Below are positions 1 to 29,150 of a stretch of DNA of 64,000 nucleotides, piece after piece. The translations under genes and the position numbers were made by a program. Origin of the DNA: Calditrichota bacterium (lineage in GTDB: Bacteria > Calditrichota > Calditrichia > RBG-13-44-9 > J042); NCBI GenBank assembly GCA_013150955.1, contig JAADJD010000019.1, positions 1-64,000 of the forward strand, in the 5' to 3' direction. The notes below the pieces were generated by a model, which had not been told where the DNA came from, did no database searches, and saw only the letters and a list, made by a program, of their open reading frames with translations. How positions within the stretch are numbered: position 1 is the first letter of the stretch; each line of letters opens with the position of its first letter.

Positions 1-64
1 CCCTGAAAAGAAGAGAATGGTTTACGGGACTTTGGCAAAAATCCAAACAGTTTAAGTTGCCAGT

Positions 65-286
65 TCAATTCTCTAATGCGTAATCTGGGTTAAAAAAGTG
101 CAACAGAATTTCCTGCTGGCTGCAAAAATCCAATAATTTTTTGTTGATGGTGACTTCCCCGAAAATCAGCAACTCGCGAACGTTTTCCACCGGTACGTAT
201 TTGCGTCCCGCTGGCCCTTCGAAATACAGGGTGTTGCCCTTGCGCCGCAATTCCCCATCGCTGAAAATGTAGATGGATTTTTCCAT
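65..286 (-). pseudogene. cas1: cas1 N-terminal fragment, truncated by a dispersed repeat end
   Basis: This is the first ~67 residues of the CRISPR integrase Cas1. The start MEKSIYIFSDGELRRKGNTL is the typical beta-strand opening of type I-B Cas1, and the fragment runs through the EILLHFF segment that normally leads into the alpha-helical catalytic domain. There the reading frame enters CCCAGATTACGC, the terminus of the 165-bp repeat family, adds NPDYALEN and stops. All metal-binding residues of Cas1 lie in the missing part, so this copy cannot catalyse spacer integration. The base string at the junction on the coding strand is TTTAA followed by the repeat end, which fits the repeat's target preference. 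I chose the ATG at 286 because the upstream TTG extension is AT-rich non-coding sequence. The remainder of cas1, cas2 and an array may lie left of the window. Confidence 0.85.
70..89 (-). repeat. Remnant end of the 165-bp dispersed repeat (inside cas1)
   Basis: About 19 bases match the left terminus of the repeat family (CCCAGATTACGCATTAG on the minus strand), after which the similarity stops. Positions 1-69 do not resemble the rest of the element and I do not recognise them. The adjoining cas1 bases 90-94 read TTTAA on the coding strand, the kind of 5-bp target seen at intact copies. Confidence 0.7.
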
Positions 287-609: not shown

Positions 610-774
610 ACCAGATTATGCATTAGCCTTCGAATTACACGAATTAACATCAATAAAAATAATAAAATGCACTGGATTCTATCTGGATGAAAATGTTTTC
701 CGGAATATATTCGCTATTTTGTTGATATTTTTCGAATTCATTCGTGTGATTCACGATTTAATGCATTATTTGGG
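610..774 (+). repeat. 165-bp dispersed inverted-repeat element, full copy
   Basis: This copy runs from (A)CCAGATTATGCATTAG to GCATTATTTGGG and is 165 bp long, matching the modal length of the family. The flanks (TTAAA left, TTCAT right) are not a matching duplication, consistent with a rearrangement that also removed the 5' end of the four-helix-bundle gene. The remaining stretch 775-915 is AT-rich and I see no gene in it. Confidence 0.85.
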
Positions 775-1553: not shown

Positions 1554-1613
1554 AATTAATACCACCATTTTGGTTCCGTATTGGAATATAATTAGTTTCT
1601 TTTTTTGTTTCAA

Positions 1614-1948
1614 CCCAGATTATGCATCAGAACAACGAATTACACGAATTAATACCAATAAAAATAATAAATTGCACTTGATTCTATCTGGATGAAAATG
1701 TTTTCCCGGATACATTCGTTATTTTGTTGATATTATCCCAGATTAAGCAATAGCCTACGAATGACACGAATTAACACAAATAAAACCAATAAAATACATT
1801 AGATTGTGTCTGGATGAAAATGTGTTCCAGGGTTTGTTCGCGATTTTGTGGATATTTTTTGGTTTTATTCGCGTGATTCGCGGTTTATTGCATAATTTGG
1901 GATTATTCGAATTCATTCGCGTGATTCGTGGTTAACGCATTATTTGGG
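1614..1948 (+). repeat. 165-bp element carrying a second copy inserted inside it
   Basis: The outer copy starts CCCAGATTATGC at 1614 and ends GCATTATTTGGG at 1948. It is flanked by the perfect 5-bp duplication TTCAA (1609-1613 and 1949-1953). Taking out the nested copy and one of its duplications leaves 165 bp, the family length. The element fills most of the 423-bp gap between the antitoxin gene and cas4; the rest of the gap shows nothing recognisable. Confidence 0.93.
1737..1901 (+). repeat. 165-bp element nested in another copy
   Basis: This copy begins CCCAGATTAAGC and ends GCATAATTTGGG, exactly 165 bp. Its flanks are the 5-bp duplication ATTAT (1732-1736 and 1902-1906), and joining the outer halves across one ATTAT restores an uninterrupted family sequence. 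That is direct evidence that the element transposed rather than spread by recombination. Confidence 0.93.
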
Positions 1949-1976
1949 TTCAATATCTAATTCTCGATATTTAGGT

Positions 1977-2492
1977 TTAACTCCAACAAAACTCCCGATA
2001 GGCGCAATTGCGGCACATGGGAATCCATTGCTCCAGTGGGGGTTTGGGCAAAGCAATGATACGACGGATGTCCGCTTCAGCATTCTGAAGTTCTTCAAGG
2101 CGATCCGGCGTTAGCTCAACCACCACGCGTTTTTTCTCTTTGGGGAAGCGCAGCTCCCCGCGAGCAGTGATGCCGTATTCCTGTAATAATTTTAAATAGA
2201 ACGCCAGTTGCATGATGGCGCTTTTCTCGAATCGGGAGGATTTCTTTACTTCCGCCACCACTATTTCCCCGTCCTGGCGTTTTATCAGGTCGATTTCCAC
2301 ATTCTCCAGGCGCACGCTTTTGCGTTCCCTCTGGTAGCTTTGCTCCTGCAAAAAACGCCCCAGTTCCAGGAAGGGGTTGTCCTGGCGCGCCTCCAATTGG
2401 TGAGCAATTAACCAGACTTCCCGGTGGCAAATGTAGTAATACCATATGAGCGTGCCGGTAACAGTAAATTTATGGTTGTCTATTAAAATCAT
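1977..2492 (-). CDS. cas4: CRISPR-associated exonuclease Cas4
   Basis: A 171-residue Cas4 of the RecB-like nuclease family, which processes prespacer ends and helps select PAM-proximal ends during adaptation. The nuclease motif is visible as the aspartate in VEIDLI (~68) and EVKKS (E81, K83), followed by the QLAFYLK helix. Four cysteines that would hold the 4Fe-4S cluster are C22 near the N terminus and C160, C163 and C169 at the C terminus. It follows cas3 in the operon with a ~115-bp gap. Because cas1 is truncated in this window, Cas4 may have no working partner here. Confidence 0.93.
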   Translation of the reverse strand: MILIDNHKFTVTGTLIWYYYICHREVWLIAHQLEARQDNPFLELGRFLQEQSYQRERKSVRLENVEIDLIKRQDGEIVVAEVKKSSRFEKSAIMQLAFYLKLLQEYGITARGELRFPKEKKRVVVELTPDRLEELQNAEADIRRIIALPKPPLEQWIPMCRNCAYREFCWS

Positions 2493-2607
2493 TATAGCTG
2501 TTAAAATTAGTATGGGATTTAAATCAATGTCGTTATTTCTGTAGCCAGTTCTTGGTAAGAAATTTGTTTAACGATATTTTAAAATCGAATTATCCCTGAA
2601 TTAAAAC

Positions 2608-4953
2608 TTACCAGATGCTCGTTTCACTAATTCGTTTATAACCGGTTGTCAAATCGTAATATTCATCCAGTTGGTTTTGGGAGACATAATACATCCCGTT
2701 CACTACCGGAGGGGGATTTTCTTTCAGATCCCGGACGCCCACACTGATAATGTAATTCTGAAGGATATATTTGATTTTCAGGTATTCTTCCCGACGTTTC
2801 CAATAATCTGGTATCTCTTTTAAAGCTCCGTAAGCTTCCCACACCTGTTTTGCCTCATCATCCAGTTCAATGAATACGTCCTGTTTTTCATAATTTTGTT
2901 CGATGAGGCGAAAATGTTCAATAGCATGTTCATCATCCGTGTAGCGCAAGTTAGCAATACTCTGGAGAAGTGCTGTACTTTCGGGGGGAGTAAATTTAGC
3001 GATCCAGTCAAAATAATGATTACACAATTCCAGAAAGGTTGTTTCCTCGTATTGGGGGTCACTTAGTGTTTTGGCAGTGACGTCCAATAGAGAGCGGTCA
3101 TAAATAAAAGAGGCAAACAAGCGCCCTTTTTCATTCACTAATCGATAAACATGGACTTCTCCGCTTTCATTTTTTTGAAAACGATTGCAACGACCAGCAA
3201 CCTGATTAATACTGTCCAAAGGTGCCCAATCCCGAAATACTATTTCGGCATCCAGATTAACGCCCGCTTCGACAATTTGTGTGGTGACCAAGAAATACCG
3301 TTCACTGGCGTTTAAACGGCGAATGCGAGCCAGGCGTTCTTTAGGTACAACATGCGAGGATAGGAATTCTGCATCTTCTACCTCAGGTTGAATTTTATAA
3401 AAAAATTCTTGGGCACTACGAATAGTGTTCAGGACTACAATCACCCGGCTTTTTTCGCTGCTCTTTTCAAGCACTTCCTCACAAAAAGCATCCAGAGTAT
3501 AGGTATTTTCCCTATGAAGAAATAAGCGGATACGATTGGTTGCCTGATAATAACGTTGGGGACTCACCAGTGCAATTTGTTCTTCCTGAGGAAAAATCCG
3601 GGGTTGCGTTGCAGTAACTAAAATAAAGTAGCTATTAAAACGTTCTGCAAATTGAATCAATAACTGATGGAGAACCTGCCAGTATTTGTACGGAATACTC
3701 TGGATTTCATCCAGAATAATTACAGCATTAGCCAAGCGATGATATTTACGCAACGTCCGATTCCGATAACCAAGCAGGGTGTGGAAAAGCTGCACAAATG
3801 TGGTAACAATCATTTGACTGTGCCAGCCTTCAATGAGTAATTCCGCTTCTGGCGTCGTGTAAGTTTCTTCTTCCGTTTCGTAAAACACATCGCTCAGGTG
3901 GTGATGTTTTAATAGCAGGGTGGAATCTACTTCATCCGGGAGTGTTTTCTCCAATACGGTTTTGAGTTCTTCGTAGTTCTGGTCAATGATGGTTGTAAAT
4001 GGCAGGCTGTAAATGACGCGGTGAAGTCCTCTGGCATGGAGTAGTTTTAATGCTGCGGATATTGCGGTCAATGTTTTCCCAAATCCAGTGGGGATTTGCA
4101 AATTGAAGATTCGCTGTCGGGTATCTGATGAAGTGGTTATTCTCTTTTGCGCTTCTTGGTATGCCTTAAATCTTAATCTATCAAAAGCAGTGTTCGGTTC
4201 ATTCCAACCTTTCAGGTTCCGAAAGCGATCGATAACGTCATCTGGAATCGGAGTGTTCATTTGAGGAAGTGTATGAATTCCCACAGCGCTCTTGTCGGAA
4301 TCGATAAGAATGGAGTAAAGTGTGTTTGTTAGAAAAAAGAAATCGAGGTCGTTCCTTTTACGAAAAAAATGAGCGATAGGCCGTTGGGGTTTAAAACTTT
4401 TGGGCAAAGATGAAATCCGTTGGTCGATTACTTCCAGGGGCAAGCTAAGTTTGCTGGCATCCCAAAACTTTTGTAACTGTTTGCGTTCAATATTTCTCCA
4501 TTGCTCTTGTAATAGTTCGCTTTGCAAACGAATAGCGTAACTGCGATTGGGACTATGCAGGTCTCCGTGATGATAGCGAATAACCAGGAAAGCAAGGAAT
4601 GCCATAATTTCCGGTGGTGGGTTGACAAAACCTGATGTTTTCAACCAGTTTTCGATTTCCCAGTAAGCGACCACAGCAGAAAGCAAAGCGTGCTGGGTCT
4701 TTTCAGTCTTTACCGGATTTTCTTGCCGGATATAATTTTGGAAAAATGATGTGGTTTTCCCCAGATCGTGAAACAGAGCAATGCGACGACATAAATCCAC
4801 AAATATATCAAATGGCAAAGGGTGTGAAGCACTTTCCGGGAGCGATTGGGCAAATGTTACTGCATATTTTGCTACCTGCTGAACGTGGTCTTCCCAGAAA
4901 GTATCCGGGTGAGAAAGCCACCTATCATTGGAAGAAATGGAGATTGACGCCAT
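2608..4953 (-). CDS. cas3: CRISPR-associated helicase-nuclease Cas3 (type I)
   Basis: A 781-residue Cas3, recruited by Cascade to unwind and degrade target DNA. The N-terminal HD nuclease has H23, the H62-D63 pair in FHDLGKT and a histidine pair in IRYHHGDLH (~128). The helicase follows with Walker A IPTGFGKT (~287-294), Walker B LDEIQS, motif III TATQP and motif VI QVAGRCNR. Both halves look complete. The start codon lies 29 bp inside the 3' end of cas5, which implies translational coupling. Length and domain order fit the type I-B form. Confidence 0.95.
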   Translation of the reverse strand: MASISISSNDRWLSHPDTFWEDHVQQVAKYAVTFAQSLPESASHPLPFDIFVDLCRRIALFHDLGKTTSFFQNYIRQENPVKTEKTQHALLSAVVAYWEIENWLKTSGFVNPPPEIMAFLAFLVIRYHHGDLHSPNRSYAIRLQSELLQEQWRNIERKQLQKFWDASKLSLPLEVIDQRISSLPKSFKPQRPIAHFFRKRNDLDFFFLTNTLYSILIDSDKSAVGIHTLPQMNTPIPDDVIDRFRNLKGWNEPNTAFDRLRFKAYQEAQKRITTSSDTRQRIFNLQIPTGFGKTLTAISAALKLLHARGLHRVIYSLPFTTIIDQNYEELKTVLEKTLPDEVDSTLLLKHHHLSDVFYETEEETYTTPEAELLIEGWHSQMIVTTFVQLFHTLLGYRNRTLRKYHRLANAVIILDEIQSIPYKYWQVLHQLLIQFAERFNSYFILVTATQPRIFPQEEQIALVSPQRYYQATNRIRLFLHRENTYTLDAFCEEVLEKSSEKSRVIVVLNTIRSAQEFFYKIQPEVEDAEFLSSHVVPKERLARIRRLNASERYFLVTTQIVEAGVNLDAEIVFRDWAPLDSINQVAGRCNRFQKNESGEVHVYRLVNEKGRLFASFIYDRSLLDVTAKTLSDPQYEETTFLELCNHYFDWIAKFTPPESTALLQSIANLRYTDDEHAIEHFRLIEQNYEKQDVFIELDDEAKQVWEAYGALKEIPDYWKRREEYLKIKYILQNYIISVGVRDLKENPPPVVNGMYYVSQNQLDEYYDLTTGYKRISETSIW

Positions 4954-5665
4954 TTCCCAGCTTCCAGTATTGTATAGGTTTCGCTTTTATTGGGTTGCCG
5001 TTCATTTCGTAAATCACGGATTCGTAACGCGTGACCATGCGTTCCGCATTCATGGCTACCGGGATACGGTCCCGTTGATATGCCCGTCCTTCTTCAATTT
5101 GCACAGCAAGCTGACCATTGTTTTGTAAATTCTCGACCGAAATAATCGAATGAATGTAGGTATAATCATTTCCACGGGTTGGCGTTGCCTCCGTCTCCTC
5201 CACGAACCGAAAATTGGCCAGGTGTTCGGAAATTCCCAGATAAGGGGTGTAAATGCACTGGTGGTGAATGAGCAGATTTTTTAGTCGGTCCATCAGCGGT
5301 TTGTTCTCCGGATGCGCTACATAAATTCGATAGTAAGGATCTTTTAGGACTTCGATAATCGTCTGATAACGGCCTTTTTCCGAGGGGATGCGCGACAGAA
5401 ATTTAGCCTTTTTCGTTTCGATCCAGTTGTACCCCATACGGGAGGTTTTAATTGGGTTTACAATTTGCACTGCACTGAACAGTCCCTCCAGTTTATTTAG
5501 ATAAAACTGTTCACCTGAAGGGTCTTTATCATAACCCAACAGAGCACCCAATATACCTTTCAGAACCGTAATGGGTGGAAAATGAAAACTTAGTGGGGAT
5601 GCGGTTGTATAGAATTTCTTAAAATGTGCCCAATCTCCCCACAGGTCAAAGACAATAGTTTTCAT
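4925..5665 (-). CDS. cas5: Cascade subunit Cas5 (type I-B)
   Basis: A 246-residue RAMP protein of the Cas5h/Cas5b type, which caps the crRNA 5' handle in Cascade. The opening KTIVFDLWGDWAHFKKFYTT and the following PITVLKGILGALLGY are characteristic. Its 3' end overlaps cas3, and it starts 13 bp after cas7, within a compact operon. No disruption is seen. Confidence 0.92.
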   Translation of the reverse strand: MKTIVFDLWGDWAHFKKFYTTASPLSFHFPPITVLKGILGALLGYDKDPSGEQFYLNKLEGLFSAVQIVNPIKTSRMGYNWIETKKAKFLSRIPSEKGRYQTIIEVLKDPYYRIYVAHPENKPLMDRLKNLLIHHQCIYTPYLGISEHLANFRFVEETEATPTRGNDYTYIHSIISVENLQNNGQLAVQIEEGRAYQRDRIPVAMNAERMVTRYESVIYEMNGNPIKAKPIQYWKLGNGVNLHFFQ

Positions 5666-5678
5666 TATCAGACCCCTT

Positions 5679-6590
5679 TTAAAATGAAAAGCTGCTTATT
5701 GATACTCCATCCAGCAGTTCCGGGAGTTGAGAAATTGAGGGTGCCATTTGTAAGCGCTCATCAACAGCATATCGAATGCGCGCAATTTTTCCTTTTTCCC
5801 GTTGCAGAGTTTCTACCAGCGGTAGAATATTCAAGGTCAGTTGGGAAATGTCTCGTAAAGCTTCATCTTCAATGCCATCCTCTTTTTTAATAGAAACCAT
5901 TTTGTCCAGATCACCAATATGGAAATTGGGTTCTTGGTATTCAATATCCAACAACAACCGGGGCATTTGTCCAAATTTGCTTCGGGAAATAAGGTTTTTG
6001 GTACCATTCCAGATGGCTTCCATCAGCAAATCTAAGTCCGAATCAGTCATCCGCGTATGCCTGGCGGCATTTTCGTTAGCAATGCCGTGGAATACAATGA
6101 GGGAATAGGGTAATGTGTAAACTTCTGTGAACGTTCCCTGTTTTCGAGCTTCTTTAGAAGGCATCACCGTTGTACCTTTGACGTAATCCAATTTTACCCT
6201 ATGTAACGACCGTCCAAATTTGAATTGTACCGGACCGGTAAAAGTAATAGTCTTGTTTTTAATGGCTGCTGTGGCCCCAAACAGACGAATGTCAATGCAG
6301 GTGTTGATTAAATCATCAGCACTGCTAATGTTTAAGTCATCCAGACGGTCTTCTTTGGTTTTTAAATTACCATCCTCTTTTTTTACTTCCCGAACAAAAA
6401 CTTCCATATTTTTGTGATCAAATAAATAGTCCCGAATGGTGCGTTTTAACCGGACATCGGTAACAATATTCACCCCGGTTTCTTCGTCAATACGCGGTTT
6501 GTTCTCATCAATGGGGTCACCGTTGGGATTGGCATCTTTGACGTCATAGATGAATAAAATTTCGTGCCGGTGGGTTAATGTTTCAGCCAT
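5679..6590 (-). CDS. cas7: Cascade backbone subunit Cas7/Csh2 (type I-B)
   Basis: A 303-residue Cas7 of the Csh2 type, which polymerises along the crRNA to form the Cascade backbone. The N-terminal segment FIYDVKDANPNGDP and the later TGVNIVTDVRLKRTIRDYL are typical of Csh2. It lies 21 bp after cas8b and 13 bp before cas5, with GGAGG-type ribosome-binding sequence upstream. The usual length of the family is matched. Confidence 0.94.
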   Translation of the reverse strand: MAETLTHRHEILFIYDVKDANPNGDPIDENKPRIDEETGVNIVTDVRLKRTIRDYLFDHKNMEVFVREVKKEDGNLKTKEDRLDDLNISSADDLINTCIDIRLFGATAAIKNKTITFTGPVQFKFGRSLHRVKLDYVKGTTVMPSKEARKQGTFTEVYTLPYSLIVFHGIANENAARHTRMTDSDLDLLMEAIWNGTKNLISRSKFGQMPRLLLDIEYQEPNFHIGDLDKMVSIKKEDGIEDEALRDISQLTLNILPLVETLQREKGKIARIRYAVDERLQMAPSISQLPELLDGVSISSFSF

Positions 6591-6611
6591 GACTCCTCCT
6601 TTATGCTGGGT

Positions 6612-8405
6612 TTAATTGTTGTTTTCTGATTCATCAATTGGTTCTTTACCCACTTTGAAAATGGGTTTGCCATCTTCGGTTGTGGCATTGGATAAATCCA
6701 TGCCCAAGAGGAAGTAAAAATTGATTTCATCATCCGTAATGTTCCAGTGGGAACCTGCCCGAACGAAATATTCGGAGATGACCTCTTCAAGCTGGGTATA
6801 ATAATTCTCGCCATACTCTTCCAGTTTGTTCTGAACTTCAGGAAAAATTTGCAAAATATCGCGCTGACGCATTTTGAGCCCTTTTAAATTTTTTCGGAAA
6901 GGCTGAGAGCCTCTATCCCGTTGTTGAATGTTTAATAAAAATTGGGTAAGCACGCCGGTCAGGAAAACAGCCCGTTTTTCCGCGGTATCGAACGTATCCG
7001 GAAACTGCTTAAAGAACTGTTCAACTTTTTCTTTGACTTCGTTTTGAATTAGGTTGTTACTCATAACCAGTTCCCCTTTTGGTTTATTGGCTAAAATGTT
7101 TAATTCCATTAATAATAAAATAATTTGAAAGGCCTGCAGTGTTTGGATTCGGGTGAATTCCTCATTGGCAAATCGCTGGCGCAAAACACCCAGAAATTGA
7201 CTTAAGAGATAGAAGTAATCCACGGGTTTGCGTTTAAAAACTTTTTCAACCACATTCAGAAAAGCCTGAGGATTAGAGATAAAGTTACGAATATTTCGGA
7301 AAGTAAATTCTATGTTTTTTAGCTCATCTTTTTCTTTATATGCTTCTTTAAAAATTGAATGGTTTTCCACAGTTTCTTTTGCAATAAACAGTTTTTTAAT
7401 CATGGATGGTAAAACATCTGGAAGATAAAGCAGAATGGTGAATTTTGCTTTAGCACTTTCGTAAAATAAAAAGTTGTAAACCAGGGCATCGCTTTGTTCG
7501 GAGGCAAAATCCAGAATGTCATCTTCTTCATCCGCTAAACGTTTTAAATCCCGAGTTTTAAGCTGTTTTTTTCTTTCCTGTTCCAGAAACACTAATGCTT
7601 CGCTCAATACTTCGGGGTTTCCTAAAATTGATTTTGGCATCAGATAATATCGGATTCCCGCAAAGCGAAAATTCAGCGCATCTTCTACATGCTGCTTGCC
7701 TTCTTCTATAAATAAACTGCATTTTTTACAAATGGGAAAATTTTTCCACCCGGTTTTTGCTGAAAATCCAGAAGCGATGAATCCGGGTTTGTCTAAGCTG
7801 TAGAAGGCCCAGGGCTTTACATTGCCCATGACAAACCCTTCCGTGCCACAAAGACTACAAACACCTTGTTCGTGGGCAATATCTTTTTTAGATTCGTAAT
7901 ACGTTTCAACAAAATAATTGCGGAATGCTTCAATCTCACCGATATGCTGATTGTTTATGCTAACGGTTAAAATAATTCCGTCGCTGCCTTCTTCAGCTTC
8001 TTTCTGTTCCAAGTGGCGTAAAATATCCTTTGCATATTTTTGTATAGCACGCGCCAGTTCACCAACGATGTTTTTATGTTCAGCATTTCCTTTTGCCCAA
8101 TTCAATATTCGATTGTTGAATGTTCCTGTTAATCCTTTTCCCGCTACCAGGGCACAGGGCGTATAATTGGCTCCGGAAGCTCCTTTTCGTTTGTAAAGGT
8201 ATTTGTCGTACTGTGTAGAAATCGGTTCATTAAAAATTCCGGAATATGATAATTCGCCATTGCCTGTTTTATCGAAATTAATTCGGATAACAGTTGAGTA
8301 ATTTTCGCTACCGGGATTTTCTAAAAGAATTGAAATTTCATCTGAAACGGATTTCCCCTGATCTTCCAGGGAAAAACGTCCAATTTCACGTAAACTTTCC
8401 AGCAT
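6612..8405 (-). CDS. cas8b: Cascade large subunit Cas8b/Csh1 (type I-B)
   Basis: A 597-residue large subunit that recognises the PAM and recruits Cas3. The Csh1-type zinc-binding site is visible as C183-x2-C186 (CSLCG) and C226-x2-C229 (CKKC). Similarity is typical for the poorly conserved Cas8b family; assignment rests on the cysteine pattern, length and position before cas7. It is separated from cas6 by an unusually long 249-bp leader that carries its own promoter-like sequence. Confidence 0.9.
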   Translation of the reverse strand: MLESLREIGRFSLEDQGKSVSDEISILLENPGSENYSTVIRINFDKTGNGELSYSGIFNEPISTQYDKYLYKRKGASGANYTPCALVAGKGLTGTFNNRILNWAKGNAEHKNIVGELARAIQKYAKDILRHLEQKEAEEGSDGIILTVSINNQHIGEIEAFRNYFVETYYESKKDIAHEQGVCSLCGTEGFVMGNVKPWAFYSLDKPGFIASGFSAKTGWKNFPICKKCSLFIEEGKQHVEDALNFRFAGIRYYLMPKSILGNPEVLSEALVFLEQERKKQLKTRDLKRLADEEDDILDFASEQSDALVYNFLFYESAKAKFTILLYLPDVLPSMIKKLFIAKETVENHSIFKEAYKEKDELKNIEFTFRNIRNFISNPQAFLNVVEKVFKRKPVDYFYLLSQFLGVLRQRFANEEFTRIQTLQAFQIILLLMELNILANKPKGELVMSNNLIQNEVKEKVEQFFKQFPDTFDTAEKRAVFLTGVLTQFLLNIQQRDRGSQPFRKNLKGLKMRQRDILQIFPEVQNKLEEYGENYYTQLEEVISEYFVRAGSHWNITDDEINFYFLLGMDLSNATTEDGKPIFKVGKEPIDESENNN

Positions 8406-8597
8406 GGTTCAAACCCAATCATTTAATTTTTTAATGTTCTAATTTTCTAAATTAAAATCCCTTTCCTCCACCCATGCTCCCGCCAGGTCAGTCCCGGAAA
8501 AAGCATTCCGGAACCAGAGCGATTAAGCGAATAATGCGGTTTGACCTACCACCGCGAAACCCCAGATAGAGTAAATGCAGTTGGAATGACTGGCGGT

Positions 8598-8626
8598 AAT
8601 TTATTATGGAGAAATTAAACTGTCAA
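8598..8626 (-). promoter_or_regulatory. Candidate sigma-70 promoter for cas8b-cas7-cas5-cas3-cas4
   Basis: On the minus strand, TTGACA (8621-8626) is followed after exactly 17 bases by TAAATT (8598-8603). It lies just beyond the cas6 stop and would give an approximately 190-nt leader before cas8b. The -35 box is perfect; the -10 is fair. The 249-bp region 8406-8654 also contains the inverted repeat CCGGAA/TTCCGG and an AT-rich tract just before cas8b. Confidence 0.6.
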
Positions 8627-8654
8627 CGGTTTCCGGTAAAGTTTGTAATTTTCC

Positions 8655-9398
8655 TTAAATGGGAGTCCACATGCCAAATCCCTGGCTGTTTTTGGATCCT
8701 AATCCACATTCATAGGTGATGCGAATTAAATCAGGATCTCCGACGAGTTCGTATTGGCCATCCCACGCTCTGATGACTGTACCCTTGTAGTAAATAATGC
8801 GTTCTCGATTGCGCTGCGATATGGGACGTATGAGAAACTGACTTTCTTTATTTTGATTGTATAGCACTTGAAATTTTTTCCGGGCATTTTCTGTCATCAG
8901 AATCGAAAAGTCTTTTTCCATAGGTGAATAATAGTGAGTGACTTTTTTCCCATCGGGTTTGCGAAAGGTACTGTAAATGGTCATTGGAGATAGCATTTTA
9001 ATTTTTACCGGGGGATGTATCTCTGGGGGAGAAAGGACTTCTATGCCAATCAACGTCAGCTGGGTTTGCCCTAACTGAAGTGTCCCTTTTCTGAGAAAAT
9101 ATTCCGCCATTTCTTGCATAATCCATTCGACCGGGGAGCTTATGTACCATTGAAAGGGAGGATGAAGCCAGATCCCTTTTTCAGGGGAAGTTTCACGCGG
9201 TGCAGCTTTTCGTCCCAGAAGGCGTGAAAAGGTGAACAGCTTAAAGGAGCGCTTTCCATGGAGAAATCCCTGATCATGCAGTTTCTGTGCATGTTCCGGG
9301 GATAAACTCTGGTAAATTGCCGCCTGAAGATATTCGTGGTATCGGAACGGAAAAAAAACAGGATCTGTCTTGCTGTCCAGTTGAAAACAAATCCTCAT
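8655..9398 (-). CDS. cas6: CRISPR RNA endoribonuclease Cas6
   Basis: A 247-residue Cas6, which cuts the pre-crRNA within each repeat and stays bound to the 3' stem in Cascade. The glycine-rich C-terminal loop GLGSKNSQGFGMW is the family hallmark, and histidines in FRYHEYLQ and KLHDQGFLHG are candidates for the catalytic residue. It is the first gene of the cas locus and has a strong promoter just upstream. Substrate repeat sequence is not in the window. Confidence 0.93.
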   Translation of the reverse strand: MRICFQLDSKTDPVFFPFRYHEYLQAAIYQSLSPEHAQKLHDQGFLHGKRSFKLFTFSRLLGRKAAPRETSPEKGIWLHPPFQWYISSPVEWIMQEMAEYFLRKGTLQLGQTQLTLIGIEVLSPPEIHPPVKIKMLSPMTIYSTFRKPDGKKVTHYYSPMEKDFSILMTENARKKFQVLYNQNKESQFLIRPISQRNRERIIYYKGTVIRAWDGQYELVGDPDLIRITYECGLGSKNSQGFGMWTPI

Positions 9399-9416
9399 AG
9401 GTAAACTTTTTCTATG

Positions 9417-9445
9417 AAAATAGTCGTTGGGATTGACTTTGTCAA
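9417..9445 (-). promoter_or_regulatory. Strong candidate sigma-70 promoter of cas6
   Basis: On the minus strand, TTGACA (9440-9445), a 17-base spacer and TATTTT (9417-9422) precede cas6 by about 19 bases. This is the best housekeeping-type promoter in the cas region. Confidence 0.7.
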
Positions 9446-9476
9446 CACAAAATCCTTCCCAACTTCTTCCCGCTAC

Positions 9477-10649
9477 TCAATTCAGCACCTGCTGGCAGAT
9501 GGATAGCATGCGCTCGATGCGATGGCGCACCAGGTGTTCTTTTTCAACGCGTGCTCTGGCTTTTTGGACAATTCGCTCTCGCTGGTCAGGGTGGGATCGA
9601 TAGTATGCAATTTTTTCTTTCATTTCCTCCACGCTATTGAAATAGGCGATTTCGGAAGTCACGTCAAACAGTTCGGCCAGGCTTTCCTTCCAGTCAGTCA
9701 ATAAAAATCCCCCGGCTGCGGGAACATCAAATATGCGGAGGCTGACCGTGCTTTCCAGTTGCTGGCTGGATAGGTTTAAATTGATCATCGACTGGGCATA
9801 TACGTGGGGCGTTTCCTTTAAAAAATGCGTTCCACGGTGAATGGTTGCCCGCACACCCAGTTCCTTCCATTTGCCGTCTCCAAAGATGTGGAAGTTCTCT
9901 TCCTGGATCTGCCGCAGCATGTATTGACGATAAATCTGCGTGGCATGGGCGATGACAAATCCGGCATACTGGTAAAAATCGTCCTCATCGGCAAAGTGGG
10001 ATTTTTGGTATGTCTCGATCTGTTCAACCAGGTTGTGGTGGAGCAGGGTAAAATCAATCTTGTGTTCCAGTTCCTGCAGGTGTTTTGAGTAGTGGGGTTT
10101 GTCCCGCATGGTTTTGGTTTTATCGAAGGTATTGCCCACAAAGGTGATGGCGGAGTGTAAAAAATTGAATTTTTTATCCCGATAGGAACGTCGGGGATCG
10201 AAGGAGCTGCCGGAGGGCAGGTAGAACACGTGCTGAAAGCCGGTTTCCAGCAAGGGATTTACCTGTTTTTTATCGAATGTAAAAATGATGCTGTTCGGTG
10301 TGGCATGCACATTGTTTTTGAAAATGATGAATCGAAAATCGTCCAGATACCACATCACGATGGGAATATCCAGCTCCGCCAGTATGCTGGCGATTTTTCC
10401 TTCGGGATCGAAGCCGCCATGATTGATGCCCATGACCGCATCCGGTTTGACCAGAACGCAGGTTTTGAGCAACTTTTCCAGCATTCGCGAAGGGTGTCGT
10501 TCGATTTGTAGGGGAACGACCTGATGTCCCAGCTGTTTGAGCGCCTCGATGGAAGTGGATTGTAAGAAATAGTCATCATTCAGGTAAATGATGCGAAAGG
10601 GTGGCGCTTGAAATTTTCTGTAATTGAAATATGCCTGTAATTTCGACAT
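9477..10649 (-). CDS. CgeB-type glycosyltransferase, possibly acting on flagellin
   Basis: A 390-residue protein with the layout of the CgeB/DUF3880 glycosyltransferase group: an N-terminal Rossmann half (FRIIYLNDDYFLQS, with VKPDAVMGINHGG) and a C-terminal half containing NLSSQQLESTVSLRIFDVPA and GGFLLTD, followed by a DQRERIV helix region. Enzymes of this group transfer sugars to proteins or surface glycans. It sits directly after the late flagellar block, so flagellin glycosylation is a reasonable inference, but a terminator-like hairpin separates it from flgM. The actual donor and acceptor cannot be read from sequence. Confidence 0.75.
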   Translation of the reverse strand: MSKLQAYFNYRKFQAPPFRIIYLNDDYFLQSTSIEALKQLGHQVVPLQIERHPSRMLEKLLKTCVLVKPDAVMGINHGGFDPEGKIASILAELDIPIVMWYLDDFRFIIFKNNVHATPNSIIFTFDKKQVNPLLETGFQHVFYLPSGSSFDPRRSYRDKKFNFLHSAITFVGNTFDKTKTMRDKPHYSKHLQELEHKIDFTLLHHNLVEQIETYQKSHFADEDDFYQYAGFVIAHATQIYRQYMLRQIQEENFHIFGDGKWKELGVRATIHRGTHFLKETPHVYAQSMINLNLSSQQLESTVSLRIFDVPAAGGFLLTDWKESLAELFDVTSEIAYFNSVEEMKEKIAYYRSHPDQRERIVQKARARVEKEHLVRHRIERMLSICQQVLN

Positions 10650-10730
10650 GGCCCTTCGCTTTATTTATTTTCGTACCCGCCGTTGTTGTTCTCGATGAAG
10701 TGGGGCTGGAAAGGGAAGGTCGGGATGGGG

Positions 10731-10777
10731 ATTAAAAGAAACGCCCAGGGCCACCCGTGTTGGGCAGGCCGGGCGTT
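10731..10777 (-). terminator. Rho-independent terminator after flgM
   Basis: On the minus strand an AACGCCC...GGGCGTT stem (10771-10777 with 10740-10746) enclosing further GC-rich pairing is followed by TTCTTTTAA. It ends the flaG-to-flgM transcript. Confidence 0.7.
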
Positions 10778-10792
10778 GAATCTTCGGCATTG

Positions 10793-11095
10793 TTAAATAT
10801 TGCGATCGATTTTTCGTGATTTCATGAATTCCTGAAAGTCTTTACTGTTCAACATCCGCTCCGCAATCTCTTTCAAAATCTCATCCCTGTCGTAATACCC
10901 TTCAGCGATCCGTCGTTTAATTTCCTGTAACCTTTCAGGAGATAATGCCTTTTGTTTTTTCGCCATTTTTTTTGCTTCCCTGGAAAATTCCGCTTTATCC
11001 GTTCGAATATCCTCCCGCTGGACTGCCCTAATTTTGTGACTCCGATCCACTCCCATTATGGAGTTCAGGGCATTGTTAATGAAGTCGATCTTCAT
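10793..11095 (-). CDS. flgM: FlgM-like anti-sigma-28 factor
   Basis: A 100-residue protein whose C-terminal half (LSPERLQEIKRRIAEGYYDRDEILKEIAERML, quoted here in part: ERLQEIKRRIAEGYY) has the helix pattern of FlgM, which holds the flagellar sigma factor FliA inactive until it is exported. The N-terminal part is charged and probably disordered, as in known FlgM proteins. It ends the flagellar transcription unit, 15 bp after a FliT-like chaperone gene. Sigma-28-like promoters in front of both flagellins make an anti-sigma-28 role sensible. Identification is from pattern only. Confidence 0.7.
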   Translation of the reverse strand: MKIDFINNALNSIMGVDRSHKIRAVQREDIRTDKAEFSREAKKMAKKQKALSPERLQEIKRRIAEGYYDRDEILKEIAERMLNSKDFQEFMKSRKIDRNI

Positions 11096-11110
11096 ATCAA
11101 CCTTCCTTAG

Positions 11111-11515
11111 TTAATAGACTCTCGAGATAATTTTCTGGCTGTTCGCCTTCCGTTTAAACCGGCTCAGGAACTCCAATCCCTTTTGCATGTGGACGATGCT
11201 CTCAATCGTTTTTTTCTTCTCACTTTCTATAATATCGCCGATATGCCTATCAACTTTAGCCACTTTTTGGAATTCCCGAACCACCCATTCGTTGATTTCG
11301 GCAATAACCTGATCCAGTTTGCTGTTGGGAAAGGTCTCTTCCATAAGCTGTTTTTTCAATGCTTCCAGTCGGGAAAAGAGTATGGCCCGTTGCTGGGCAT
11401 AATCCACAAATTGCTCCCAGTCCCGTTGTTGGGCGCTCTGGTGCAGTTTGTGGGTAATGCGCTCCACTGCCTCAATTAATTGCCCCACTTCCTGTTTTAA
11501 TTTTGCTTCGTCCAT
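11111..11515 (-). CDS. FliT-like flagellar export chaperone
   Basis: A 134-residue all-helical, heptad-rich protein (coiled-coil pattern throughout, ERITHKLHQSAQQRDWEQF then SRLEALKKQLMEE). Size, helical make-up and position right after flaG and fliD fit FliT, the chaperone of the filament cap FliD, but FliT and FlgN are too divergent to separate with confidence by eye. A distinct FlgN-like protein is encoded next to flgK at 20877-21362, which favours FliT here. Confidence 0.55.
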   Translation of the reverse strand: MDEAKLKQEVGQLIEAVERITHKLHQSAQQRDWEQFVDYAQQRAILFSRLEALKKQLMEETFPNSKLDQVIAEINEWVVREFQKVAKVDRHIGDIIESEKKKTIESIVHMQKGLEFLSRFKRKANSQKIISRVY

Positions 11516-11522
11516 AGTCTGT

Positions 11523-11942
11523 TTATTGTCTCGAATCGATTTCCCAGCCCTGAAACTCTTTTGGTTCCTGTAGCTGTTTGATATGTTCGACCATTTTCAG
11601 ATAAACATCAGGTGGAATTTCTCGAACTACCTTATCGGTTACCGGATCCTTCACGATGATCACGATTTTGCCAGCGTCTTCTTTGATTTCGAATTGAATT
11701 TTAATGCCCGCCTGTTTCAGGTGTTCCCGCACTTTGCGGGCAATCTCTCGAAGCGAGTTCGGATCATTTACAACAGCCTTTTCGATTTTTAGCTGCCGTA
11801 AGTCGGCGTTCACCTTTCGGGTTTGCTGATTGGGCCGGGGAATTTCTTTTGCCTTGGACTGCTGAACCGTTCGTCCCGCATGTTGAAAAACCGATTGGGG
11901 CTGGGCAACCCGCATTTTAATGCTTTCAATCTCCATTTTCAT
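11523..11942 (-). CDS. flaG: FlaG family protein
   Basis: A 139-residue FlaG protein. The C-terminal domain carries the family pattern: a beta segment IQFEIKEDAGKIVIIVKDP, then VREIPPDVYLKMVEHIKQL. The N-terminal ~60 residues are low-complexity and basic. FlaG proteins influence filament length in several bacteria. It starts 5 bp after fliD and precedes the FliT-like gene. Confidence 0.88.
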   Translation of the reverse strand: MKMEIESIKMRVAQPQSVFQHAGRTVQQSKAKEIPRPNQQTRKVNADLRQLKIEKAVVNDPNSLREIARKVREHLKQAGIKIQFEIKEDAGKIVIIVKDPVTDKVVREIPPDVYLKMVEHIKQLQEPKEFQGWEIDSRQ

Positions 11943-11947
11943 CCCTC

Positions 11948-13372
11948 CTATCCGGGAATAAAGAACCCGGCTTGAACAACGGATGATACATAATTAAACT
12001 GGGCCGTGTACATGGCGTAGGCCGCCTGCAAGCGCGAGAATTGATCCCGATAGTATTCCATCTTCCGGTCGATCTGTTTCTGCAGCAGTTCAATCCGATT
12101 GTTGATGCGATTGATCTGACTGGACAGCACGTCCTTTCGGCTTTCAATGACGCCTTCTCCAGAAGTCATTTCCTCCAGAATGCTGTCCAGCCGCCCCGAG
12201 TAACCATCGCTGGAATTGAACAGGGCTTCGACCTGTTCCAGGTTGTTGCGGATCATGTCTTCCAGCTTATCGCTATCGGAGATGCTCAACTTCCCGTCAC
12301 GATCGGTGGAGATCCCAATTTCCGACAGGATGGTGGGATATCCGCTGGGCAGACCGTCCACCGGCTCTGCAATCTCCTGCCGTAATTGCAACCGCAGTTG
12401 CATGACCGAAAAATCCCCACTGAAGGTCGAACGCTCGTAAGTGGTGGTGTTAACTGCCGTATTGCTCTGAATGAAATCCATTACCTCGTTGTAGGCATTG
12501 ATGAAATCCTCGATCTTTCCCTTAATCGCTTCCACATCGTTGGTAACGTTGATCGTGACCGGGGCTTCGGTAGATTCCTGCCGTTTGTGCAGGGTGATGG
12601 TCAGTCCTTCAATGGCGTCTTCGATCGTGTTGCTGTTGCTGGTAACGGTGATGCCATCGATGAGTACAATGGCATTCAGTTCGGTGCTGTCGTAAACATA
12701 ACCGCCGGATGTACCGGACATTTTAACGCTATCGTTCATTCCGATGGTGCTTAGCAGGCTGCCAGAGACATCGGCCAGGCTCATCTCGTAATCCTGTCCC
12801 GTTTCTTTGCTGGTAAATACCAGGCGTACTGTGGAGGAGGAATCTTTCACGATGGATGCCTGAATGCCAATGTCTGTGGTATTATTCACCGCCGTGACGA
12901 TGTTTTCCAGAACGGTTTGATTATCATCTCCGGATTGGATATCCACCGAGACCTGTTTGGTCGTTCCATTGACCGTTACGTTAAAGGTAAACGTTCCCGC
13001 CCCCAGTGTGGAGGAGATATCCGTTCCCGTTGCCGTGTATTGATTGGAAACGACCTGATCCGCTTTGGCCAGCTGGGAGACGAAGATGGTGTGGCTGGTC
13101 GCCACGGCGGAAGAAGTGGCACTGACGGTAACAATGCTCTCATCGCTGCTGGTGGCTGCCTTGCGGCCCCAGATGGAGGTGCTGCCGGAATATCCCAGAT
13201 CTTTTACCAGGCTCTGTAACGTGTTGAGTTTGGTCTTGAGCTGATTGAAGAGCTGAATGCGGTTATCGATGGCTTCCTTGCGCGATTCCAGCTCCCGGAT
13301 GGGCCGTTCTTCCAGAACCCGGTAGCTCTGGAGCAGCAATTCGATGTTGTTACCGCCAATGGGTGAAATCAT
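11948..13372 (-). CDS. fliD: Flagellar filament cap protein FliD
   Basis: A 474-residue FliD (hook-associated protein 2), the cap under which flagellin subunits fold into the filament. The N-terminal ISPIGGNNIELLLQSYRVLE with the EERPIRELESRKEAI helix and the C-terminal helices (NRINNRIELLQKQIDRKMEY, then LQAAYAMYTAQFNYV) are typical. The central domains are Ser/Thr-rich and variable. Its Shine-Dalgarno sequence lies in a small hairpin that looks like a CsrA-binding site. Confidence 0.93.
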   Translation of the reverse strand: MISPIGGNNIELLLQSYRVLEERPIRELESRKEAIDNRIQLFNQLKTKLNTLQSLVKDLGYSGSTSIWGRKAATSSDESIVTVSATSSAVATSHTIFVSQLAKADQVVSNQYTATGTDISSTLGAGTFTFNVTVNGTTKQVSVDIQSGDDNQTVLENIVTAVNNTTDIGIQASIVKDSSSTVRLVFTSKETGQDYEMSLADVSGSLLSTIGMNDSVKMSGTSGGYVYDSTELNAIVLIDGITVTSNSNTIEDAIEGLTITLHKRQESTEAPVTINVTNDVEAIKGKIEDFINAYNEVMDFIQSNTAVNTTTYERSTFSGDFSVMQLRLQLRQEIAEPVDGLPSGYPTILSEIGISTDRDGKLSISDSDKLEDMIRNNLEQVEALFNSSDGYSGRLDSILEEMTSGEGVIESRKDVLSSQINRINNRIELLQKQIDRKMEYYRDQFSRLQAAYAMYTAQFNYVSSVVQAGFFIPG

Positions 13373-13376
13373 AATT

Positions 13377-13390
13377 TCACCTCCATGTGA
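13377..13390 (-). promoter_or_regulatory. Candidate CsrA-binding hairpin at the fliD ribosome-binding site
   Basis: On the mRNA, TCAC-ATGGAG-GTGA forms a 4-bp stem with the Shine-Dalgarno GGAG in the loop, 4 bases before the fliD start. ACATGGAGGT is close to the CsrA consensus (ACARGGAUG). Confidence 0.55.
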
Positions 13391-13392
13391 TG

Positions 13393-13728
13393 TTAATCCA
13401 GGTTAAAAGCCTTGGCCCAGGTGTCCCGCAATTGTTGCAAAATGGTCAGGGGTTCGTGCGTGTTCCCCTGATTCAGGTGTTGCTGACAATAGCGGTACAA
13501 CCGAAAGAAACCCAGGGCCACTTCTTGATAATCAAAATTCAGTGCCGAGATCAGTTCCGTTATCGCTTGATTGGCCTTGGCAATATCATTCTTTTTAATC
13601 GAAACGATGGCCAGGTCATATAATTTCAGGATCAGCTCCGTAGGCGATGCGTTAAGAATTTCATTCTGCCGGTACTGATTTAATGCCTTTGGCTGAATTT
13701 TCTTCCGGTATCCCAGTGCTGTATTCAT
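13393..13728 (-). CDS. fliS: Flagellin export chaperone FliS
   Basis: A 111-residue FliS, which holds flagellin monomers before export. The opening sequence ends ALNQYRQNEILNASPTELIL and is followed by KLYDLAI, the standard FliS pattern, with the four-helix bundle completed by residues to 111. A terminator lies between it and flagellin, so fliS probably has its own promoter in the 100-bp gap, which I cannot identify. It reads into fliD with 20 bp between. Confidence 0.92.
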   Translation of the reverse strand: MNTALGYRKKIQPKALNQYRQNEILNASPTELILKLYDLAIVSIKKNDIAKANQAITELISALNFDYQEVALGFFRLYRYCQQHLNQGNTHEPLTILQQLRDTWAKAFNLD

Positions 13729-13783
13729 GCTTTGGTTTCTCCTACCTGTTTTGGTTGCCCATTACCCTTGGTTACCGCCAGTG

Positions 13784-13825
13784 GATAAAAAGGGCCTTTA
13801 TCAGCGTCTGGAAAGGCCCTTTATC
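13784..13825 (-). terminator. Rho-independent terminator after flagellin 1
   Basis: A long stem, GATAAAGGGCCTTT paired with AAAGGCCCTTTTTATC on the minus strand, is directly downstream of the flagellin stop at 13829 and contains the T-run in its 3' arm. Confidence 0.85.
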
Positions 13826-13828
13826 CCG

Positions 13829-14668
13829 TTAACGGAAGAGTTGTAAGATTCCCTGTGGTGCGGCGTTTGCCTGTGCCAGCTGTACCGTTGCCGTTTGCTG
13901 CAAGATCTGGAGTTTGGTTATCTCCATCTGCTCCTTGGCCATATCGGCGTCCATGATTCGGCTGGCTGCGGCTTCGGTGTTGGTAATGGCAACCAGCAAC
14001 GTGGCTTCTTTATAATCCAACCGCTGGATCAACGATCCAATGTTCTGCAGTTCCTGGGTCACCGTCTTGATCGCGTTGTCCACGCTGTTCAGGGTAACGC
14101 TCAGGCTGCTTCCTTGCAGATCGGTAGAGGCGATGTTGTTCAGACCGAAATCGGAAGAATCGATCGCTTTGGTCAGGCTGATGCTCAGCGTATCGCCACC
14201 ATCCGCACCCACCTGGAACACCTTCCCGGTGAAGTTGTTGTCCAGCAATTGGGCGTTGTTGAACTTGGTCTGAGAGATGATGTCATCGATCTCGTTCAGC
14301 AAGTCTCGGATCTGAGTCACAATCGCATCCAGCTCTTCGGAACCGTAGGATCCGTTTCCGGCCTGAATCACCTTCTCCTTAATGGTGACCAGGATGTCGT
14401 TGATGTTTTGCAGGCCACCTTCGGCGACGGAGAGAATGTTTTTCGCCTCGCCGGCATTGTTCAGGGCCTGTCCCAGTGCTCGGGAACGCGCCTTTAATTT
14501 GGTCGCCAGCGTGTAGCCTGCTGGATCGTCTGCGGCCGAGTTAATCCGCTTCCCTGTGGAAAGCCGCAGCTGAACCACCCCAATTTTGCTGTTGATGTTG
14601 CTGAGGGCGTTAAACGCGTTGAGGGCACCAACGTTGGTGTTAATCCGTGAACCTGTGTAAAACGCCAT
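13829..14668 (-). CDS. Flagellin, paralogue 1
   Basis: A 279-residue flagellin consisting only of the conserved D0/D1 ends: RINTNVGALNAFNALSNIN and SAADDPAGYTLATKL at the N terminus, and AASRIMDADMAKEQ plus QANAAPQGILQLFR at the C terminus. There is almost no variable D2/D3 domain, so it would make a thin filament surface. It is about 80% identical by eye to the tandem copy at 14886. It has its own sigma-28-like promoter, a CsrA-like hairpin at the ribosome-binding site and a terminator, so it is likely expressed independently. Confidence 0.95.
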   Translation of the reverse strand: MAFYTGSRINTNVGALNAFNALSNINSKIGVVQLRLSTGKRINSAADDPAGYTLATKLKARSRALGQALNNAGEAKNILSVAEGGLQNINDILVTIKEKVIQAGNGSYGSEELDAIVTQIRDLLNEIDDIISQTKFNNAQLLDNNFTGKVFQVGADGGDTLSISLTKAIDSSDFGLNNIASTDLQGSSLSVTLNSVDNAIKTVTQELQNIGSLIQRLDYKEATLLVAITNTEAAASRIMDADMAKEQMEITKLQILQQTATVQLAQANAAPQGILQLFR

Positions 14669-14671
14669 GAT

Positions 14672-14687
14672 AATACCTCCTTGTATT
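14672..14687 (-). promoter_or_regulatory. Candidate CsrA-binding hairpin at the flagellin 1 ribosome-binding site
   Basis: The mRNA reads AATAC-AAGGAG-GTATT: a perfect 5-bp stem presenting the Shine-Dalgarno AGGAG in the loop, three bases before the ATG. Confidence 0.65.
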
Positions 14688-14733
14688 TTGTTGATTCTTA
14701 ACTGAGCATCCTTGCCCAGATGCTGCTCTTACA

Positions 14734-14761
14734 TTATCGTCTGCTTAGATCGTTTCGTTTA
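14734..14761 (-). promoter_or_regulatory. Candidate sigma-28 promoter of flagellin 1
   Basis: On the minus strand TAAA (14758-14761), a 16-base spacer and GACGATAA (14734-14741) resemble the TAAA-N15-GCCGATAA consensus of FliA promoters. Confidence 0.5.
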
Positions 14762-14830
14762 ATCGTTTCCTCAACCCTTTTGCGGGGTACAGGCGCTGCC
14801 TCTACCCGGCGAAAAGGTTGTGTTATGGTT

Positions 14831-14865
14831 TAAAATCGGGGACCATCAACGGTGACGGTCCCCGA
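14831..14865 (-). terminator. Rho-independent terminator after flagellin 2
   Basis: TCGGGGACC pairs with GGTCCCCGA across a 12-base loop on the minus strand, followed by TTTTAAA. It lies 20 bp after the flagellin 2 stop codon. Confidence 0.88.
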
Positions 14866-14885
14866 TGGGTGGCTCGAATTTTGAA

Positions 14886-15725
14886 TTACCGGAATAGACT
14901 CAAGACGCCCTGTGGCGCCGCGTTTGCCTGCGCAAGCTGTACCGTTGACGTTTGCTGGAGAATCTGAAGTTTGGTTAACTCCAGCTGTTCCCGAGCAATA
15001 TCGGCGTCCATGATTCGGCTCTTGGCGGCTTCCGTGTTGGTAATGGCCGTCAGCAGGGTCGATTCCTTCACGTCCAGTCGACTGATCAACGAACCAATCT
15101 TCTGCAGTTCCTGAGTCACCGTCTTGATGGCAGTATCGATACTGTTCAGAGTGGTGGAAACGCTGCTTCCGGTTAAGTCTGTGGTGGACAGACTGTTCAG
15201 CCCGAAATCGGACGAATCGATGGCCTTGGTTAAGCTCACCGTCAGCGTATCGCCGCCGTCGGCGCCGATCTGGAAGATCTTGCCAGTGAAGTTGTTGTCC
15301 AGCAATTTGGACGAATTGAACTTCGTCTGGCTGATGATATCGTCCACTTCCTTCAGCATGTCGTTGATCTGCGTCAGGATGGCGTTGAGCTCTTCGTCGC
15401 CGTAAGAACCGTTTCCGGCCTGAATGACTTTCTCCTTGATACCCACGTAGATATCGTTGATGTTTTGCAAGCCACCTTCGGCCACGGAGAGCACATTCTT
15501 CAGCTCGCCGACGTTGTTGAGTGCCTGGGAAAGACTGCGAGAACGCGCTTCCAGCTTTTTGCTCAGGGTGTAACCTGCGGGGTCATCGGCAGCGGAGTTG
15601 ATCCGTTTGCCCGAGGCCAAACGCATCTGAACCGTGCCGATTCGGGAATTGATGTTGTTGAGGGCATTGAAGGCATTCAGTGCCCCAACGTTGGTGTTAA
15701 TGCGGGATCCAGAATAAAACGCCAT
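14886..15725 (-). CDS. Flagellin, paralogue 2
   Basis: A 279-residue flagellin, the tandem sister of the gene at 13829 with the same length and nearly the same ends (GSRINTNVGALNAFNAL; SRIMDADIAREQ; QANAAPQGVLSLFR). Differences are concentrated in the D1 linker helices. It too lacks a variable surface domain. The best sigma-28 promoter in the window lies upstream and overlaps the stop codon of the glycosyltransferase gene. Two separately controlled flagellins suggest a filament of mixed or staged composition. Confidence 0.95.
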   Translation of the reverse strand: MAFYSGSRINTNVGALNAFNALNNINSRIGTVQMRLASGKRINSAADDPAGYTLSKKLEARSRSLSQALNNVGELKNVLSVAEGGLQNINDIYVGIKEKVIQAGNGSYGDEELNAILTQINDMLKEVDDIISQTKFNSSKLLDNNFTGKIFQIGADGGDTLTVSLTKAIDSSDFGLNSLSTTDLTGSSVSTTLNSIDTAIKTVTQELQKIGSLISRLDVKESTLLTAITNTEAAKSRIMDADIAREQLELTKLQILQQTSTVQLAQANAAPQGVLSLFR

Positions 15726-15740
15726 AACAACCTCCTTGTT
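15726..15740 (-). promoter_or_regulatory. Candidate CsrA-binding hairpin at the flagellin 2 ribosome-binding site
   Basis: The mRNA reads AACAA-GGAGG-TTGTT immediately before the ATG: a perfect 5-bp stem with the whole Shine-Dalgarno GGAGG as loop. This is the geometry of the CsrA site that covers the hag ribosome-binding site in Bacillus subtilis. Confidence 0.7.
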
Positions 15741-15845
15741 TTTTGGTGAGAATCCCTTCTCTATGTTGCAGCCCTGGTTAATTGAGAAAGTAGAAGCGGC
15801 TGCGTTCTTCTACTTCCGCCTAAGGCGCCTTAGAAGCAACATTTA

Positions 15846-15872
15846 TTATCGGTTTTCCAAAATCATTCTTTA
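15846..15872 (-). promoter_or_regulatory. Sigma-28 promoter of flagellin 2
   Basis: On the minus strand TAAA (15869-15872), exactly 15 bases, then ACCGATAA (15846-15853) match the FliA consensus TAAA-N15-GCCGATAA in all but one base. The -35 element coincides with the TAA stop of the upstream glycosyltransferase gene. The leader to the ATG is about 115 nt. Confidence 0.78.
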
Positions 15873-21540: not shown

Positions 21541-21785
21541 TCAGATTTTGCCTCAGACCACGAATGACGCCAATGAACACAAGTAAAATGCATTAAACCG
21601 CGAATCGCAGGAATGAACCTAAGAATTTCAACAAAATAGCGAATAAATCCCGGAACACATTTTCATCCAGATATCATCAAACGGATTTTATTTTTTGTTC
21701 GTGTTAATTCGTGTCATTCGTGGGCTATTGCGTAATCCGGGTTTAGATGAATTCGTGTGATTCCCGGTTTGATACATAACTTAAG
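21541..21785 (+). repeat. Composite of dispersed 165-bp-family elements at the end of the ABC exporter operon
   Basis: The block starts TCAGATTTTGCC and ends CATAACTTAAG, degenerate forms of the family termini, and is flanked by the 5-bp duplication TTAAC (21536-21540, 21786-21790). Inside, a second partial copy ending GCGTAATCCGGG is recognisable. The right-hand duplication contains the stop codon of the permease gene (21786-21788), so the insertion left that gene intact. The other bases of the 423-bp gap hold only the possible flgN promoter. Confidence 0.85.
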
Positions 21786-28628: not shown

Positions 28629-28789
28629 CCCGGATTATGCATTAGCCTACGAATTACACGAATCAACACCAATAAAAATAGAATGCACTTGATCTATCTG
28701 GATGAAAATGCTTTCCCGGATATATTCGCTGTTTTGTTGATTTTTTTCGAATACATTCGCGTAATACGTGGTTACCTGCATCATTTGGG
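28629..28789 (+). repeat. 165-bp-family element between tetR and its operator
   Basis: A 161-bp copy from CCCGGATTATGC to GCATCATTTGGG with a perfect 5-bp duplication TTAAT (28624-28628, 28790-28794). Removing it and one TTAAT would place the palindrome at 28802 about 28 bp before the tetR start. The exporter transcript now starts beyond the element and must carry it as a structured leader. Confidence 0.93.
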
Positions 28790-28985: not shown

Positions 28986-29150
28986 TCCAGATTATGCATT
29001 AAGCCACGAATTGCACGAATTAACACCAATAAAAATAACGAAATGCACTTGATTCTACCTGGATGAAAATATTTTCCCGGACATATTCGCTATTTTGTTG
29101 ATTTTATTCGAATTCATTCGCGTGATTCGTGGTTCTTTGCATGATTTGGG
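28986..29150 (+). repeat. 165-bp element nested in a truncated copy
   Basis: Exactly 165 bp, TCCAGATTATGC to GCATGATTTGGG, with the perfect duplication ATAAT (28981-28985, 29151-29155). Between 28609 and 29290 (682 bp) I find only these repeats, the operator/promoter, and unassigned sequence at 28860-28940 and 29161-29290. Confidence 0.92.

Follow-up and report, generated by a model that had tools for sequence, protein, structure and literature searches.

The DNA analysed here (the window) consists of the first 64,000 bases of a contig of 66,293 bp, taken from the 66-contig draft of a 4.07-Mb genome. At its left edge, a minus-strand cas1 gene (1-304) is matched over positions 1-66 of a 283-position profile and no further, being cut there by an IS1380-family insertion sequence (IS), of which the right end is present. 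The rest of this gene was not found in the assembly, and a second Cas1, a 438-aa open frame, is encoded on another contig (C5). Further inward, the minus strand carries a CRISPR-cas operon (1977-9398) with cas6, a TM1802-type large subunit, cas7, cas5, cas3 and cas4; no CRISPR repeat array was found in 8400-15900. Between the cut cas1 and cas4 lie the genes of a PIN-domain toxin and its FitA-like ribbon-helix-helix antitoxin (916-1613), which adjoin the nested element that is our main subject, as well as a 23S_rRNA_IVP (four-helix bundle) gene (337-774). The latter is without its N-terminal third (profile positions 32-105 are matched), and a MITE of the family described below sits in its place. 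This MITE, whose flanks TTAAA and TTCAT give no exact match, may have disrupted the gene.

Next to the toxin-antitoxin pair, a short element interrupts another copy of itself (1609-1953; Table 1). The original prediction had described this as a clean insertion, in which an inner copy is flanked by ATTAT on both sides; once it and one ATTAT are deleted, a continuous 165-bp outer element bordered by TTCAA is left. All of this is borne out by the sequence, down to the exact coordinates. The inner and the reconstructed outer copy, both 165 bp long and in the same orientation, can be aligned with each other over their whole length. Scored against a family profile modelled from 136 full copies, the restored outer element covers model positions 1-165 with 132.4 bits, and in the alignment with full family copies that had been proposed as a check, it runs from end to end and is gap-free at the junction. 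Neither a gap nor extra bases relative to the family consensus, which had been named as evidence against nesting, were seen there; the restored copy does differ from the profile by a 1-bp insertion and a 1-bp deletion, and these lie well away from the junction at model position ~123. Removing 0, 4, 5 or 6 bases in addition to the inner copy gave outer scores of 125.7, 126.8, 132.4 and 125.2 bits, that is, an optimum at exactly 5. The inner copy has a best relative of 96% within the same genome, and its identity to its nearest relatives is 95.5%, versus 91.7% for the outer one.

Table 1. Family copies, target duplications and IS1380-family end in the window (WTNAW is the target consensus given in the text).
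Feature	Coordinates	Strand	Remarks
IS1380-family right end (transposase gene end + terminal repeat TCTAATGCGTAATCTGGG)	1-89	+	remainder lost at contig edge
Target-side flank of window-edge IS, TTAAA	90-94	.	fits WTNAW
Full family copy	610-774	+	
Outer left target duplication TTCAA	1609-1613	.	fits WTNAW
Outer element, left part, 123 bp	1614-1736	+	model positions 1 to ~123; starts CCCAGATTATGCA
Inner left target duplication ATTAT	1732-1736		last five bases of outer left part
Inner element, full 165-bp copy	1737-1901	+	younger subfamily
Inner right target duplication ATTAT	1902-1906	.	
Outer element, right part, 42 bp	1907-1948	+	terminates in CGCATTATTTGGG
Outer right target duplication TTCAA	1949-1953	.	
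Nearly full family copy	21587-21741	-	model positions 1-158
Full family copy	28629-28789	+	duplication TTAAT/TTAAT
Full family copy	28986-29150	+	duplication ATAAT/ATAAT
Full family copy	34128-34294	+	duplication TTAAA/TTAAA
Full family copy	36526-36692	-	
Full family copy	39415-39579	+	
Second nested case, outer interrupted by inner	44428-44761	-	outer complete (model positions 1-165) after excision, with an optimum at exactly 5 extra bases
Inner of second nested case	44541-44704	+ (opposite to outer)	flanks TTTGT/TTTAT, one mismatch
Inner of third, partial nested case	62980-63144	-	model positions 24-165 of outer regained by excision; flanks ATAAA/ATAAT

The 165-bp element is a non-autonomous, quasi-palindromic MITE with no genes of its own. 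At 165 bp, it falls below the ~600 bp of a short element and is bounded by terminal inverted repeats (CCCARATNATGCA...TGCATNATYTGGG), with CCCAGATTATGCATTA / CCCAAATAATGCATTAA as the consensus of the two ends. The longest open frame over the inner copy has 53 aa and extends beyond its end, leaving this multicopy element without a transposase of its own. Being nearly palindromic, the MITE folds as a long hairpin, with z-scores of -3.6 as DNA and -5.9 as RNA. An Rfam scan of the window matched no family, so the MITE is not a described RNA. A profile search of 1.258 Mb, made up of the window and stretches of eleven other contigs, returned 412 non-redundant family stretches, 203 of them full-length, which together occupy 3.9% of the bases; as this is 31% of the genome, extrapolation gives about 650 full-length copies among some 1,300 stretches. 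A strict end-to-end pattern, run over the whole genome, retrieved 63 copies, and the same pattern reversed retrieved 0. Most copies are old, with a median identity of 89% to their three nearest copies.

The claim that the element transposes with a 5-bp target duplication is supported at the focal locus and throughout the family. Of 202 full copies, 70 have an exact 5-bp repeat on either side, while any other length is found in at most 5; when flanks were shuffled among copies (200 shuffles), 5-bp matches averaged 15.9/202 (~8%) and never exceeded 28. The target duplication thus has a fixed length of 5 bp. In all 70 duplications, position 2 is T and position 4 is A, and the outer positions are nearly all A or T (WTNAW); TTCAA and ATTAT, the two focal duplications, both fit. 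The original prediction had regarded the two duplications as strong internal proof. Transposition itself is borne out, yet the single 5-bp matches are weaker evidence than that and carry only moderate weight, each being expected by chance at ~8%. Because the uniformity of WTNAW targets weakens such single matches, it is the gap-free restoration of the outer element and the family-wide excess of duplications that carry the proof. The focal event is a nested transposition of a non-autonomous element, a textbook case and ordinary in kind.

As for the enzyme, the same genome harbors an IS1380-family IS whose ends (CCCAGATTAYGCAWTAG) are nearly those of the MITE. Its right end lies at the edges of contigs C12 (that of the window), C14, C19, C35 and C44, and its left end at the edges of contigs C13, C21 and C27. 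Since five contigs begin or end in the right end, the assembly must have collapsed at least five copies, and the assembled ends are nearly identical to one another. Genome-wide, a single IS1380-type (DDE_Tnp_1_4) transposase was matched, at the edge of contig C18; it scores 138.3 bits to PF13701 and 219.4 bits to NCBIfam NF033539 (cut-off 180), which marks it as IS1380-type; positions 1-31 of the window match it at 100%. Note that the assembled transposase gene (L127:1034-1266 and 3-1085) has a frameshift near its start, possibly a mutation or an effect of collapsed-repeat assembly.

MITE and IS share terminal repeats, a likeness established at the ends only. With CCCAGATTACGCA(A/T)TAGA in the IS against CCCAGATTATGCATTAG and CCCAAATAATGCATTAA in the MITE, the first 18 end bases are identical at ~15-16 positions, among them the CCC and a GATTA.GCA.TAG core, and position 10 is C in the resident IS and T in most MITE copies. 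The IS is flanked by TTTAA at 6 of 9 ends and also by TTAAA and ATAAT, all of the WTNAW type, with left and right ends unpaired across contigs; all three targets are also used by the MITE. One left flank, AGATT, falls outside WTNAW and follows a repeat of the first 8 end bases. Among the IS1380-family elements ISEcp1, IS1247 and ISPme1, similar ends are known from ISEcp1 (IRL CCTAGATTCTACGT, IRR ACGTGGAATTTAGG; PMC7864471) and 5-bp duplications from IS1247 (PMC3281130), as in the MITE here. In addition, beside TTTAT on an Aliarcobacter plasmid lies what appears to be the right end, CCCGGATTTTGCAATAG, of a distant, independent IS1380 element whose protein is 45% identical. While these IS encode a transposase, the MITE is gene-free and almost palindromic.

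Mobilization by this family is the best explanation, given that a multicopy IS1380 element resides in the genome whose ends are nearly those of the MITE and whose targets appear to be of the same type; that is, judging by ends and targets, an IS1380-family transposase most likely moves the MITE in trans. At the focal locus, an older copy entered TTCAA between cas4 and the toxin-antitoxin pair, and a copy of the younger subfamily later entered ATTAT inside the older one. The transposase, most likely of the IS1380 family and acting in trans, would bind the MITE ends (CCCAGATTATGCATTA / CCCAAATAATGCATTAA), cut W-T-N-A-W targets with a 5-bp stagger and join the element to them, after which gap repair would produce the 5-bp duplications. 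We hold this combination, nested MITE insertion by an IS1380-type enzyme provided in trans, to be the best explanation overall with considerable confidence. The candidate enzyme is that of the resident IS or of a lost relative. Both end position 10 and the flanks of the resident IS (mainly TTTAA) differ slightly from those of the MITEs, whose spread may therefore be owed to a related IS1380 element that has since been lost.

The same differences (position 10, and a preference for TTTAA as opposed to WTNAW) would also be accommodated if a different transposase, now lost or unassembled, had spread the MITE, with the resident IS1380 as a later arrival whose ends are convergent or only distantly related. 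Such a history would suit the age of the MITE copies (median 89%) next to near-identical IS ends, as well as a same-genus genome (G001) in which a related element is present and the transposase went unmatched. We nevertheless consider it rather unlikely, given how closely the ends agree, core included, and how the targets overlap (TTTAA, TTAAA, ATAAT). Moreover, the genome offers a single DDE_Tnp_1_4 match, and the 1.26-Mb sample contained no IS-sized element bearing MITE-like ends and matching flanks.

Nesting itself recurs across the genome. No fewer than 37 of 201 full copies (~18%) are nested in another one, and in 22 cases a full-length outer element reappears on excision, as compared to none of 200 equally long control excisions placed nearby. 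The focal nesting is therefore typical of the family and not special. Relative orientation varies among the nested cases, with both kinds represented, and so do the insertion points; two further cases lie in the window itself (Table 1). Removal of exactly 5 extra bases gave the best outer score in 17 of the 22 cases. Since clean nesting recurs 22 times in a third of the genome, the length of the duplication can be measured in this way independently of the duplicated letters. The inner copy is closer than the outer one to its nearest relatives in 16 of the 22 pairs, as expected if inner copies are younger.

It is highly improbable that this pattern arose through homologous recombination or gene conversion between neighbouring copies, or through tandem duplication. 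Although the copies are numerous and similar, and the focal pair has the same orientation, an exchange at homologous positions would not result in a complete element enclosed by a precise 5-bp duplication within an otherwise intact outer copy; nor does it fit the mixed orientations, the varied insertion points and the 5-bp optimum in 17/22 cases elsewhere. Just as improbable is an assembly artefact by which short repeat reads were misjoined inside one contig: the draft is in 66 contigs and does break at IS copies, but 22 clean nested cases respect both the element boundaries and the 5-bp rule, and target duplications would not be created by misassembly.

The frequency of nested insertions does not reflect a preference of the element for itself. 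The number of insertions per WTNAW site was 0.030 in intergenic DNA outside the MITEs, 0.012 within MITE DNA and 0.0015 in coding sequence (with simple ORFs as a proxy for gene calls). As self-insertion is rarer per site than insertion into other intergenic DNA, self-targeting was ruled out; nesting is common because MITEs form much of the non-coding DNA.

Among known elements, TIMEs are Tn3-derived miniature elements of small size, with inverted repeats and a 5-bp target duplication, and in these properties they resemble the MITE here. Tn3 ends are 38 bp long and start with GGGG, for example in Tn2/Tn3 (PMC7864471), whereas the MITE ends start with CCCA and are not of this ~38-bp type; a Tn3-derived TIME was therefore rejected. 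Correia, ERIC and other bacterial MITEs are likewise short, intergenic and hairpin-forming, with inverted repeats, a duplicated target and no transposase, yet the MITE here differs from these in its ends and target (IS1380-type ends, WTNAW, 5 bp). ERIC reaches 711 copies in Photorhabdus luminescens, according to a review of prokaryotic MITEs that makes no mention of IS1380 (PMC10969869). The genome share found in our sample (3.9%) exceeds the "up to 2%" quoted elsewhere (PMC3281130). For the pneumococcal BOX, RUP and SPRITE repeats, insertions of one repeat into another have been resolved by realigning the joined flanks (PMC3049150), which follows the same excision logic in different families and hosts.

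The kind of element is thus a known one, a high-copy bacterial MITE with IS1380-type ends; what is notable is its copy number and its tie to the IS1380 family. Nesting offers direct proof, in the sequence, of element boundaries, of the 5-bp duplication and of the order of insertion. It does so for a very abundant bacterial MITE family with a tie to the IS1380 family. To the latter also belongs ISEcp1, a mover of resistance genes; how ISEcp1 transposes has been described as unresolved (PMC9330008).

The burst appears to be specific to this species among 40 genomes of the phylum. The strict end pattern was found in 0 of the 39 others, MITE copies were absent from the viral contigs and plasmids searched, and none of 15 other genomes of the order gave a match to the IS1380 protein. 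At the focal locus, the neighbouring Cas4 was without a match in the three nearest genomes (same genus or family). The same-genus G001 contains a single 307-bp element (L117:1243-1549) with MITE-like ends and with arms that are related to those of the MITE but enclose an unrelated middle; it has the duplication ATAAT/ATAAT and is possibly a relative of the family with a different core. We think it somewhat probable that this IS1380-type MITE, expanded in one species to ~650 full copies and ~1,300 stretches in total (~4% of the genome, with about a fifth nested) and absent or single-copy in relatives, ranks among the largest bacterial MITE bursts known. If true, such a burst would constitute an internal record of target choice and insertion order. 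Weak matches in other relatives concern only the ACGAATTACACGAATT arm motif and not the ends. The arm motif ACGAATNACACGAATT occurs in the related genomes G007, G012, G016 and G026 (L120, L125 and others) without CCC...GGG ends, and in G012 it forms arrays of direct and inverted copies.
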